DNA from: a virus
Reading direction: 5' to 3' (one strand)
Length of the DNA stretch: 31,890 bases
IMG/VR virus record: IMGVR_UViG_3300032308_000660
Coordinates: 1 to 31,890 of that record
Positions 4,477-30,239 of the stretch are shown in pieces; within the stretch, counting starts at the first letter, position 1, and each line of letters opens with the position of its first letter. A program made the translations under genes and the position numbers. A model generated the notes under the pieces. That model did no database searches and was not told the origin of the DNA. It worked only from the letters and a program-made list of their open reading frames with translations.

Positions 4477-4503
4477 TGTCGCCCTCACAGGACCGGGGCG
4501 ACA
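4477..4503 (-). other. Intergenic hairpin
   Basis: A perfect 8-bp inverted repeat (TGTCGCCC at 4477-4484 against GGGCGACA at 4496-4503) with an 11-base loop lies between the M15 peptidase stop and the next gene. It has no U-run on the minus strand, so it is not a standard intrinsic terminator. It may be an mRNA processing or stability element. Confidence 0.6.
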
Positions 4504-4511
4504 AATGTGAA

Positions 4512-5027
4512 TTAGTATCTCCATGCACATTGAAAATGCATAGCATCGGTATCACCATTGATACCTCTCCACCAGATACCGTGCTTCATTAGGATATTAC
4601 AAAACTCTCTATTGATCATACCTTCTGCCCATTTCTTAGGAAATGGATTACGAGCAGGATCCATATCAATAGCAATACCATATGCGTGAACTGATAATCT
4701 TGAACCACCACGCATTAGACGGTAGTTAAATGTACCTCCAGAGATATCAAGATGTATCTCTTTGATCTCTTGTGGTGTAAAGTGTTCTTTAACCTCTGTA
4801 TATGCCGCAGTATAAACATCTACAACTTTCTTATGTAATTGTAATGTTCTTAGTGGTGTTCTCTTACCATCCGAATAAAAGATTGGATAAGGCGGCGTCC
4901 ATTTAACAATGTTTGCTGCATACCACTTACGGCTTACCTGACCGTTACTACCACGAGGATCACCGAAGAACTTATTTAGGTTCACCGTATCTTCGTGTGG
5001 AAATAGTTCTTTACATTTCTCAGACAT
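4512..5027 (-). CDS. M15-family peptidoglycan peptidase
   Basis: Predicted zinc D,D-carboxypeptidase or L-alanyl-D-glutamate endopeptidase (M15C-like) acting on peptidoglycan crosslinks. The metal site is readable: His114 and Asp121 in HAYGIAIDMD (H-x6-D) and His164 in DAMHFQ near the C-terminus, with the Trp pair IWWRG at 151-155 lining the cleft as in the family. There is no signal peptide or membrane span. It is the last gene but one of the late virion block, three bases after the 144-residue gene, so it could be a virion lysin used at entry as well as a lysis enzyme. Confidence 0.85.
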   Translation of the reverse strand: MSEKCKELFPHEDTVNLNKFFGDPRGSNGQVSRKWYAANIVKWTPPYPIFYSDGKRTPLRTLQLHKKVVDVYTAAYTEVKEHFTPQEIKEIHLDISGGTFNYRLMRGGSRLSVHAYGIAIDMDPARNPFPKKWAEGMINREFCNILMKHGIWWRGINGDTDAMHFQCAWRY

Positions 5028-24468: not shown

Positions 24469-25044
24469 ATGTATTGTGTATATTTAACCGTATATTCTGG
24501 CAATCTATTACCTCCATTTTATATTGGTTCTTCATCTGTAAAGAAAGTTACAAATGGATATCACGGAACTGTAAAGTCCAAAAAATATAAAAACCTTTAC
24601 CATAAAGAACTTAAAGACTATCCACATCTATTTAAGACACATATTATATCAGTTTTTAATAAACGTCAAGAGGCTTTAGAAAAAGAAAACATCTTACAAA
24701 GAAAACTTAAAGTTATAGAATCTCCTTTATACTTTAACGAGGCGTATGCCAGAAACTTCGGAATGTCCACAAAAGGAAACAAAAACGGTTTTTTCGGTAA
24801 ACATCACAGCGAAGAGACTTTGATTAAGATGCGCAAACCAAAATCAACTACAATAAATATGAAAAAACCAAAATCTTATTCCCATCGGATGAGCATATCA
24901 AAAGCTGTAAGAAAAAGAAAGTTCTTCAATGATGGAATCAAAGATTATATGATAGAACCTGATGATCCAAAAGTTAAAGAACTAAAACTTGTTCCCGGTC
25001 GCCTTTACATACAAAATCAAAACAAGATTAGATGGTCTAAGTAA
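24469..25044 (+). CDS. GIY-YIG-type homing endonuclease with NUMOD3
   Basis: A probable free-standing mobile endonuclease that cuts a related phage genome and spreads by repair. The first 50 residues fit a diverged GIY-YIG nuclease domain (MYCVYLTVYSGN, then PFYIGSSSV and a Gly-Tyr segment). Residues about 104-123 carry NUMOD3 (NGFFGKHHSEETLIKMRKPK), the DNA-contact repeat of such enzymes, repeated weakly as KKPKSYSHRMSIS. It is basic, AT-rich and the only plus-strand gene between 16 and 28 kb. Its 3' end overlaps the DNA polymerase stop by eight bases (convergent), marking it as an insertion between uvsX and gene 43. Confidence 0.85.
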   Translation: MYCVYLTVYSGNLLPPFYIGSSSVKKVTNGYHGTVKSKKYKNLYHKELKDYPHLFKTHIISVFNKRQEALEKENILQRKLKVIESPLYFNEAYARNFGMSTKGNKNGFFGKHHSEETLIKMRKPKSTTINMKKPKSYSHRMSISKAVRKRKFFNDGIKDYMIEPDDPKVKELKLVPGRLYIQNQNKIRWSK

Positions 25045-28797: not shown

Positions 28798-28960
28798 AAT
28801 GTTCCCTCACAATGTTTATAATATTATTGGAGCAGGATCCGCACACTTGCGAACACCCAAGTTCTTTTAGAATAGTACCAACAGATGGTTGGCGTTCCTT
28901 ACCGTTTAAACATTCTTTAATGTTATCTTCGGTAATGATATTACAGGAGCAGATAATCAT
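28772..28960 (-). CDS. Bacterioferritin-associated ferredoxin-like [2Fe-2S] protein
   Basis: In bacteria Bfd donates electrons to release iron from bacterioferritin. This 62-residue protein has the same spacing of cluster ligands: Cys4 and Cys6 (MIICSCN) and Cys40 and Cys43 (QVCGSCS), followed by a C-terminal helix (NIINIVREHY), against C4, C6, C38 and C41 in the E. coli protein. It is the first gene of the replication operon, 14 bases after a strong promoter start, so early expression is likely. A role in iron supply for ribonucleotide reduction is less direct here because the reductase is B12-dependent. It could also be a redox partner for another enzyme. Confidence 0.85.
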   Translation of the reverse strand: MIICSCNIITEDNIKECLNGKERQPSVGTILKELGCSQVCGSCSNNIINIVREHYESLHRSV

Positions 28961-28980
28961 TTCCCACCTTCTACCTATAT

Positions 28981-29008
28981 ATTATACCAGAACTGGTGGA
29001 GAAGTCAA
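28981..29008 (-). promoter_or_regulatory. Sigma70-type promoter for the bfd-polymerase operon
   Basis: TTGACT (29008-29003), a 16-base spacer and TATAAT (28986-28981) with a TGG extended -10 on the minus strand. It reads into the Bfd-like gene and the replication genes beyond. It overlaps the start region of the divergent spanin gene. Confidence 0.8.
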
Positions 29009-29009
29009 C

Positions 29010-29351
29010 ATGCCTTTTAATTCTACAACCATTAATCTTATCCTTTCGGCTCTCATAACAGCCGTATTGAGTGGTGGTTATTTTTTCTGGAAGAACTCTG
29101 TAGAACAAGAATCCCTCAATAGATTAAAAGTTTTACAATTAGAGCAGCAGTTAAAAGATCAAGAAAAAACCATTACGGATCTAAATGCTCTGAACAAAGA
29201 AAGTAATGAATTGATTTCTGATCTAAAGAATAAAGAGATTAATCTTAATCAGAAACTAGGTGACTTGGAAGCATATCTTAACAATCAACCAAAAGACCAA
29301 AAAGAATCCTCAGAGGTTCTCAAAAGAACATTTAAGGAATTATCACAATGA
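29010..29351 (+). CDS. Inner-membrane spanin-like protein
   Basis: A 113-residue type II membrane protein: a short N-terminus, one membrane span at about 7-26 (INLILSALITAVLSGGYFFW) and a long heptad-rich helix (30-95) in the periplasm. This is the Rz (i-spanin) layout. The ATG at 29010 follows GGAG. Its stop overlaps the next ATG (ATGA), and the next gene encodes a lipoprotein, the expected outer-membrane spanin. Together they would fuse the two membranes at the last step of lysis. It is transcribed opposite to nearly all other genes. Confidence 0.85.
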   Translation: MPFNSTTINLILSALITAVLSGGYFFWKNSVEQESLNRLKVLQLEQQLKDQEKTITDLNALNKESNELISDLKNKEINLNQKLGDLEAYLNNQPKDQKESSEVLKRTFKELSQ

Positions 29352-29611
29352 AAAAGACATTAGTTCTCTTTCTATTATTAGCAGGTTGCCAATCCACCTC
29401 ATTACCAACAACCAAACTTCAAGTTGTAACCCCACCAGAACAAATGTATGACTGCCCAATAAAAACTAAATGGCCAAATTGGCAAAAACTAAATGACACC
29501 GACGTAGCTAAAACGATTGTTGAACTTTATAAGAACAATGTTCGTTGTAAAAACTCCGTCGATGCCATCAAAAAATATCTAACGGACGCTAAGGCCCAAA
29601 TAGAAGATTAG
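29348..29611 (+). CDS. Outer-membrane lipoprotein spanin-like protein
   Basis: An 87-residue lipoprotein with signal peptidase II lipobox LLAGC (Cys14), giving a mature 74-residue periplasmic protein anchored in the outer membrane. The mature part is polar with Pro near the start (SLPTTKLQVVTPPEQ) and a C-terminal helix, typical of Rz1-type o-spanins, although longer than lambda Rz1. It overlaps the i-spanin gene by four bases. Two further cysteines could form a disulfide. The gene converges with the holin-like gene, overlapping its 3' end by four bases. Confidence 0.85.
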   Translation: MKKTLVLFLLLAGCQSTSLPTTKLQVVTPPEQMYDCPIKTKWPNWQKLNDTDVAKTIVELYKNNVRCKNSVDAIKKYLTDAKAQIED

Positions 29612-29832
29612 AAGTTTGACGGATCTGTTGGATGGGAAGCGTTTGTGACGTTACCATCTTTGGCAGCAACGCCAAGACCAACGATTGAAAGTAGGAAAGG
29701 CCATACTTCGTCCAATGGTGGAAGAGGCATTGACTCCGGCCATACACCAGCATATTTTAGTCCATATGCTATTAGTGGAATAAGACCAACAACTGTAGTC
29801 TTCCAGTTAGCTGAAAAATTCTTTAATGACAT
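29608..29832 (-). CDS. Holin-like small membrane protein (74 aa)
   Basis: The sequence starts MSLKNFSANWKTTVVGLI with two hydrophobic stretches (VVGLIPLIAYGLKYAG and FLLSIVGLGVAA) and ends KDGNVTNASHPTDPSNF. The closing KDxNVT motif is typical of a widespread small phage membrane family often annotated as holin. The start is put at 29832 (or 29835, an adjacent ATG) because AAAGGAG is at suitable spacing; a GTG-started extension upstream would include the hairpin region. A CTAAATA box lies 34-43 bases upstream. Convergent position next to the spanins supports a lysis role. Confidence 0.72.
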   Translation of the reverse strand: MSLKNFSANWKTTVVGLIPLIAYGLKYAGVWPESMPLPPLDEVWPFLLSIVGLGVAAKDGNVTNASHPTDPSNF

Positions 29833-29849
29833 CATATTCTCCTTTATAA

Positions 29850-29868
29850 AGAAGCCCGAAGGCACTTC
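29850..29868 (-). terminator. UUCG-capped hairpin, possible terminator of the upstream RNA
   Basis: On the minus strand GCC-TTCG-GGC with outer GAA/TTC pairs (two-base bulge) is followed by TTCTTTAT. The tetraloop is very stable and the U-run short, so termination would be partial. The CTAAATA box overlaps its start. Confidence 0.5.
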
Positions 29869-29945
29869 TATTTAGGATAATTGAATAAGCGCCGGGGATT
29901 TTAACGTCTCCCGGCTTGACGGTGCACTTGTCTGGGAGACAAGAT
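29866..29945 (-). ncRNA. Candidate structured RNA with mutually exclusive hairpins
   Basis: No ORF is present. Read on the minus strand, hairpin A is CTTGTCT-CCC-AGACAAG (29927-29943), and hairpin C is GCCGGG with CCCGGC (29891-29896 with 29910-29915). Hairpin B, GTCTCCC with GGGAGAC (29906-29912 with 29934-29940), uses bases from both A and C, so A+C and B cannot form together. A TATAAATA box at 29946-29953 would start transcription at its left end, and a UUCG hairpin lies at its 3' end, giving an RNA of about 80-90 bases. It does not match any riboswitch class I recognise. Confidence 0.5.
29869..29875 (-). promoter_or_regulatory. Late promoter-like box CTAAATA before the holin-like gene
   Basis: CTAAATA on the minus strand, 34 bases upstream of the first ATG of the holin-like gene. 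Late expression would suit a lysis gene. Confidence 0.5.
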
Positions 29946-29953
29946 TATTTATA
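29946..29953 (-). promoter_or_regulatory. Late promoter box TATAAATA
   Basis: An exact T4-type late box on the minus strand, overlapping the stop codon of the 96-residue secreted-protein gene and located just before the hairpin region at 29866-29945. Confidence 0.6.
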
Positions 29954-30239
29954 GGCCTAGAAAACCGACACCTAGAAGGCCACGAGAACTACCACGAGGA
30001 ACGATATCAATCTGAATATCACCACCATCGTTATCAACATCAACATCAGCACCCGGAGGAGCAGTTACAACCATACCATGCGGTGTAACCTGTGCAGCAG
30101 GAGCGAAAACACCACGACTTTTCTGGGCACCAGGAACGGCAACTGTTTTACCATTGTGTGTCTCGTCCTGTGTTGTAAGGGCCATTGCTGAACCTGTTAG
30201 ACCGAGAACAATTGCCGTTGTAATCAAAAACTTATTCAT
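29949..30239 (-). CDS. Small secreted protein (96 aa)
   Basis: Function unknown. A Sec signal peptide (MNKFLITTAIVLGLTGSAMA, cut after AMA) precedes a polar mature protein with an acidic patch (GADVDVDNDGGDIQIDI) and a glycine-rich end (SSRGLLGVGFLGL). The acidic repeat could bind calcium, but no named motif is complete. It starts in a TAATG overlap with the DUF4214-like gene and so is co-translated with it. Confidence 0.75.
   Translation of the reverse strand: MNKFLITTAIVLGLTGSAMALTTQDETHNGKTVAVPGAQKSRGVFAPAAQVTPHGMVVTAPPGADVDVDNDGGDIQIDIVPRGSSRGLLGVGFLGL

Follow-up and report, generated by a model that had tools for sequence, protein, structure and literature searches.

Frameshift pseudoknots of the luteoviral BWYV type join their stems through a single-nucleotide junction and carry a short L1 that starts with C and an A-rich L3; the self-cleaving Pistol ribozyme is likewise a small pseudoknot, in which the first stem is followed by a linker similar to UUAAA. 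In phages, the pseudoknot of the T4 gene 32 mRNA is the operator of gp32 (PMC3014915), and the manA and wcaG motifs occur in cyanophages (PMC2864571). A folded viral pseudoknot, an xrRNA of a flavivirus, stops the bacterial RNase J1 in vitro (PMC5760640). Here we describe an H-type pseudoknot in a 31,890-nt stretch of viral DNA (IMG/VR record IMGVR_UViG_3300032308_000660, positions 1 to 31,890; hereafter the window) and the wider family of viral pseudoknots to which it led.

Matches to DNA polymerase and to a UvsX-like recombinase mark the window as a piece of a T4-like phage genome; DNA and protein searches of the INPHARED phage collection with the window returned no relevant match. The DNA polymerase gene has an HNH/homing endonuclease gene (24469-25044, plus strand) as a neighbour in the opposite orientation. 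The locus studied here runs along the minus strand from a 96-aa gene through a putative late promoter box, the paired stems, a second box and a UUCG hairpin to the Shine-Dalgarno sequence of a 75-aa gene. The 96-aa gene (29949-30239, minus strand), the product of which ends in RGLLGVGFLGL, was found at 23 viral loci, at some of which the element lies 3′ of it, and its TAA stop codon (29951-29949) falls within the late box. The 75-aa gene (29608-29835, minus strand) encodes a small membrane-type protein that was originally described as holin-like; because a PHROG search returned no match for this protein, we treat its identity as a holin as putative only. An Rz-like spanin gene (29348-29611, plus strand) converges with the holin-like gene, and is one of several small plus-strand genes (28812-29611) that do so. 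Read in the plus direction, the first hairpin of the element (hairpin A, below) followed by ATTATTTATA receives a weak terminator score.

The late box, TATAAATA (29953-29946, minus strand), is a candidate late promoter of T4 type, with a conserved G at the expected distance from it. In related phages TAAATA is invariant, the next 4-5 nt vary and an invariant G follows, at the head of a nearly invariant stretch, GUC(U/G)CCCAGACA(A/G)GUGC. Because a variable spacer of this length followed by a constant G fits a promoter and its +1, we predict that transcription starts at this G, which would place +1 at 29940. The hairpin of the conserved 5′ module GUCUCCCAGACAAGUGC (29940-29924, minus strand) begins 4-5 nt past the late box, at the expected +1, and the module forms the core of hairpin A, which pairs 29943-29937 with 29933-29927. 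A nine-sequence alignment (A2) shows no variation at G17-C19, C21-A28 and G30-C33 of the window row; three pairs of hairpin A never vary, and the alignment holds no compensatory changes in it. The 53 nt from 29943 to 29891 fold at -18.9 kcal/mol (z = -3.66), a value reached by 0 of 200 dinucleotide shuffles, and a 100-nt region gives z = -2.74, in support of the proposal that a structured RNA leader follows the late-type box. We also considered tRNA mimicry, as the loop CUCCCAG resembles the anticodon loop of a Gly(CCC) tRNA and complements the arm of a tRNA-Pro(GGG) in another contig (L042). This idea was dropped: that contig is unrelated and the match lies on the opposite strand of the tRNA gene, and in a collection of this size chance could plausibly produce a few 17-mer matches of this sort.

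The original prediction placed three mutually exclusive hairpins between two late-type boxes, and read the region as either a small RNA of 80-90 nt or a switching leader that times lysis. Both boxes are present (TATAAATA and, at 29875-29869 on the minus strand, CTAAATA), as are all three stems on that strand: hairpin A, stem B (29940-29934 with 29912-29906, a span of 29906-29940) and hairpin C (29915-29910 with 29896-29891). A fourth stem had been missed. S1 pairs CGUC (29921-29918) with GACG (29908-29905), was found both by inspection of the sequence and by a structural descriptor, and is interleaved with hairpin C, the loop of S1 containing the 5′ arm of that hairpin. On this pairing pattern, hairpin C is one half (S2) of an H-type pseudoknot, with GCCGGG (29915-29910) opposite CCCGGC (29896-29891). 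The remaining parts, also on the minus strand, are L1 (AA), L2 (A) and an A-rich L3, UUAAAAUC (29904-29897), which crosses S1; its UUAAA is common to the seeds of the wider family, and the relative L280 has UAAAA instead. The knot lies about 20 nt from the predicted RNA 5′ end. Stem B does share bases with both A and C, as proposed, yet it is no competitive alternative to them. Alone it reaches -11.4 kcal/mol against -18.4 for A and C together, 7 kcal/mol weaker, and its base-pair probability is about 1e-5 in a calculation that does not even credit the knot. Two of its seven pairs are broken in seven of nine sequences with no compensatory change, and 66.7% of its alignment cells are paired, with no covariation. 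B would disrupt both the pseudoknot and hairpin A. Because it is neither conserved nor competitive, we judge it incidental and find the switch unsupported.

Relatives were sought in viral contigs with the holin-like protein (40 homologues), the hairpin sequence and the 96-aa gene. The element recurs in related phages, a check that the original prediction had proposed: it is present in the T4-like contigs L037, L043, L044, L045, L047 and L280, always just after TAAATA. A tRNA-Gly-like sequence lies 3′ of it in all of these except L280, which has a peptidase-like gene there, as the window has its holin-like gene; an oxygenase-like gene is also among the genes downstream of the element in relatives. 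ARAGORN calls the tRNA-Gly of L047 only, perhaps because the other four have an unusual anticodon loop. S2 is GCCGGG/CCCGGC in the window and L280 and UGGGG/CCCCA, with the register shifted by one, in the other relatives, the pairing of both strands being kept while the letters change; S1 is invariant among the T4-like relatives that have the pseudoknot. One contig (L046) carries the hairpin module alone and three (L282-L284) carry the hairpin followed by a different inverted repeat and no pseudoknot, from which we conclude that the element consists of two separable modules. In these three contigs (L282 at 4503-4700), the long inverted repeat (TTGAGTGATACTG...CAGTATCACTCAA) precedes a tRNA-like sequence. 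The pseudoknot also occurs without the hairpin, adjoining or inside tRNA clusters, in three further phage contigs, and near-complete relatives hold each module once or not at all.

The element is absent from most of the 40 holin homologues, and in relatives it precedes other genes; because it is thus not tied to the holin, we find the role in timing lysis unsupported. The terminated small RNA fails on the hairpin that was to end it. The UUCG hairpin (29868-29851, minus strand) lies at the predicted start of the holin transcript, and homologues have a short hairpin in the same place, directly after a second TAAATA box (present in most of those examined) and before the Shine-Dalgarno sequence. 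Their stems differ, they have no consistent U-run, and many, that of the window included, fall individually within the shuffle range; a minus-strand terminator scan of the window found none at this hairpin. Since the hairpin recurs in homologues without the upstream element, it looks like a leader hairpin of the holin transcript rather than a small RNA terminator. The holin homologues L002-L041 and the window (29875-29851) mostly share the order of TAAATA box, hairpin of differing stem sequence and then Shine-Dalgarno sequence, which suggests that late transcripts of this group begin with hairpins. A switching leader or small RNA that times lysis, for which the overlapping stems and the putative holin gene downstream had spoken, now appears highly improbable, given that B is neither conserved nor populated and that the element occurs apart from the holin.

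To look beyond T4-like phages, a seed scan with CGTC..GGG..GACGTTAAA fixed S1 and UUAAA and left the downstream strand of S2 free; of 110 sites, 20 could form an S2 of at least 6 Watson-Crick bp, where shuffles predict 2.7. Because one group of these sites was highly uniform, a further scan kept S2 and L3 constant and allowed any S1. It gave at least 120 matches in viral contigs, whereas 257 Gb of bacterial and archaeal genomes yielded 18 stretches. The resulting consensus, NNNC-C-UGRGYA-U-GNNN-UUAAAC-UGCYCA, is a 28-nt H-type knot. Although S1 was unconstrained, 122 of the 127 distinct sites among the matches listed keep at least three of its four pairs (92 form four and 30 form three) with dozens of S1 sequences; the chance of all four pairing is about 2%. 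A set of 75 distinct sequences scores 0.411 for covariation, where shuffling gives 0.148 and slid controls do not exceed 0.074; each of the four S1 pairs varies on both of its sides. When S2 and L3 were relaxed, the S2 pairs switched between G-C, A-U and U-A, L3 took the form NWAAAC, and the unpaired positions U12, U17 and U18, which the search had left free, proved to be constrained. For the free descriptor scan we used the counts of other geometries as the null, since pairing survives reversal and reversed sequence is therefore invalid as a control. Taken together, these patterns of sequence indicate that the family is a real RNA pseudoknot family, and the frequent U-G at one S2 pair among the 75 sequences favours RNA over single-stranded DNA as the folded form. 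No Rfam family covers it, and no description was found in the open-licence literature; the family is apparently undescribed so far.

Family members sit mainly between genes. Of 96 viral sites, 83 fall outside long ORFs, compared with 33% of random positions. In 43 of the 96 a same-strand stop codon lies 4-6 nt ahead of the knot, and in 50 a same-strand ATG follows its end by 16-32 nt. Contigs hold up to seven copies, nearly all on one strand (61 pattern matches against 7 for the reversed pattern). The knot lies upstream of head scaffolding and major capsid genes in Staphylococcus, Lactobacillus, Streptococcus, Anoxybacillus and D6E phages, with scaffold start codons 30-160 nt away; it follows the ribonucleotide reductase gene in roseophages and precedes ssb (one copy) in Synechococcus phage S-EIV1, primase in a crAss-like phage, a PhoH-like gene and, by 3 nt, tRNA-Gly in Arthrobacter phage Molivia. 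The range takes in phages of Firmicutes, Actinobacteria, Cyanobacteria, Alphaproteobacteria and Bacteroidota, a Vibrio phage group and a single-stranded DNA microvirus. A strict link to hosts that bear RNase J was considered and dropped, because the Vibrio phage group also carries the pseudoknot. Four core-type pseudoknots lie within 3 kb of one contig from a Bacteroidetes metagenome-assembled genome (L462, 4712-7693), which is probably a phage or prophage. In Cellulosimicrobium phage DS1 (L306, 792-861), a strong match to the Pistol ribozyme (66 bits, E 6.9e-10) precedes a family pseudoknot on the same strand by about 340 nt.

Does the window knot belong to this family? It has the H-type topology of two interleaved stems, by sequence and by descriptor, and lies on the coding strand between two genes, the 96-aa gene and the holin-like gene, all on the minus strand. 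It shares S1 (CGUC/GACG) and the UUAAA after S1 with family members, and lacks the core letters (C in L1, U in L2, a 6-nt L3 ending in AAAC and UNNNCA in S2): L1 is AA rather than C, L2 is A, S2 is GCCGGG and L3 has 8 nt rather than 6. Knots of a second type occur elsewhere (L164, L174, L188 and L195), with a long GC-rich S2, an L1 of 2-3 nt and UUAAA in L3, several of them directly before start codons, and it is this second group that the window resembles. Four other second-type knots (L154, L170, L184 and L202) are near-identical, with an S2 of GGCGGGC/GCCCGCC and then a T-rich stretch, and possibly combine a knot with a terminator. On sequence comparison we consider the window knot a likely divergent member of the family, and no more than likely, because the core letters fail and the seed pattern had itself fixed S1 and UUAAA. 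The T4-like relatives might instead share the element by descent, with a knot unrelated to the wider family. The differences in L1, S2 and L3 length and the bias of the seed search argue for that reading; the four knots elsewhere that have the layout of the window, with its long GC-rich S2 and 2-3-nt L1, argue against it, and we regard it as rather unlikely, though with appreciable weight.

What the knot does has to be judged from its company. Our preferred model, which we hold tentatively and at somewhat less than even confidence, is that the window element is a late leader with a 5′ hairpin and a knot, the latter a probable family member that serves as a barrier in mRNA decay or processing. 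The late promoter TATAAATA would start the RNA, the first nucleotides of which would fold as the hairpin GUCU-CCC-AGAC plus AAGUGC and shield the new 5′ end. The H-type knot that follows (S1 CGUC/GACG, S2 GCCGGG/CCCGGC, A-rich L3) would be a mechanical barrier to exonucleases, restricting decay and letting adjacent cistrons have different fates. A late mRNA, a scaffold/capsid mRNA or a tRNA precursor on one side of it would then last longer. Where a tRNA follows, cleavage by RNase P would make the knot the 3′ terminus of the mRNA upstream. The arrest of RNase J1 by a folded viral pseudoknot (PMC5760640) speaks for such a barrier. By position alone, the knot is compatible with service to either the upstream or the downstream gene. 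The conservation, pairing pattern and placement relative to genes are observed, and transcription, its +1 and the barrier function are what we infer; we judge a barrier the most likely role because the knot sits at the junction between a cistron and the next RNA unit, tRNAs included, before genes that may need high expression.

The main rival to such a barrier is insulation or standby in translation. A knot at the upstream edge of the footprint of the initiating ribosome could insulate the start codon from ribosomes that leave the upstream gene, or could itself be a standby/enhancer site, a possibility that gains from the clustering of knot-to-ATG distances at 19-32 nt, from the 43 of 96 sites beginning 4-6 nt after a stop and from the presence of Shine-Dalgarno-like sequences in only 47 of 75 downstream leaders. 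That geometry fails directly before tRNA genes, and where scaffold start codons lie 30-160 nt away; the tRNA contexts lead us to favour processing, and translational control is in our estimate unlikely, if a serious contender. The conserved core (C-G pair, C in L1, junction U, AAAC in L3) could otherwise be an operator or riboswitch, through which a protein or small-molecule ligand controls the gene that follows. Constraint at the unpaired U12, U17 and U18, which the relaxed search had left free, the copy before ssb in S-EIV1 and the gp32 precedent in T4 with its UUAA(A) repeats (PMC3014915) all speak for recognition of this kind. The downstream genes are diverse, however (scaffold, the RNR/glutaredoxin region, PhoH-like, primase, tRNA), as are the hosts, which span several phyla, and a single phage regulator is therefore unlikely; moreover, there is no Rfam match and the core letters are not kept in the window type. 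A gp32-like operator is thus possible for individual genes and not for the whole family, and as a general account we find this quite doubtful. Finally, a knot placed 5-6 nt after a stop codon might act in recoding, stimulating readthrough or frameshifting in the manner of retroviral and luteoviral knots. The spacing resembles that of recoding pseudoknots, and the single-nucleotide junction and A-rich L3 of luteoviral knots add to the likeness; yet 57 sites hold no slippery heptamers, many sites lie far from a stop, and the readthrough extension has a median of 17 codons against 11 at control stops, so recoding has very little chance of being right.

The window leader is ordinary in position, yet an RNA element within it pointed the way to a family of viral pseudoknots that is widespread and apparently undescribed. 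A 28-nt knot with strong covariation in many phage groups suggests a common RNA-level device that annotation has missed because it is short and knotted. If the knot stabilises or partitions mRNA, it would help to explain how unequal amounts of proteins such as scaffold and capsid arise from one long transcript, and would offer a ready-made expression part. The most far-reaching form of this proposal, which on present sequence evidence we think improbable though worth stating, is that the family is a new class of cis-acting phage pseudoknot, functionally convergent with the xrRNAs of eukaryotic viruses, that is placed repeatedly in phage genomes, blocks RNA decay and sets cistron-specific mRNA levels, and that would here form part of a T4-like late promoter cassette together with a protective 5′ hairpin.

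Known classes resemble the family only in part. In agreement with the original view that no known riboswitch class is involved, no Rfam family reached threshold at the element: searches of the window at gathering and permissive thresholds gave nothing there (best chance matches E 1.2-9.6), and the same held at both thresholds for the relatives and 17 annotated phage loci. A Pistol-like ribozyme was considered and rejected, as there is no P2/P3 or cleavage region and the Rfam Pistol model does not match at the window. The STAXI motif is likewise a pseudoknot near genes of DNA-handling proteins; the STAXI, manA and wcaG models have no match at the window or the family sites. Unlike luteoviral frameshift knots, the family has no slippery site and does not lie inside overlapping frames. 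The gene 32 knot of T4, T2 and RB69 is, like the family, a phage H-type knot in a 5′ untranslated region with UUAA(A) nearby, and one family copy, in S-EIV1, also precedes ssb; in the window the gene that follows is the holin-like gene and not ssb. The gene 32 knot is single, 67 nt from its start codon and specific to gp32, whereas the family is multi-copy and precedes varied genes and tRNAs. The xrRNAs of flaviviruses and plant viruses share with the family a compact viral pseudoknot proposed to block an exonuclease; they adopt a ring-like fold, whereas the family, in which resistance is hypothetical, is a simple 28-nt H-type knot placed between the genes of DNA phages.
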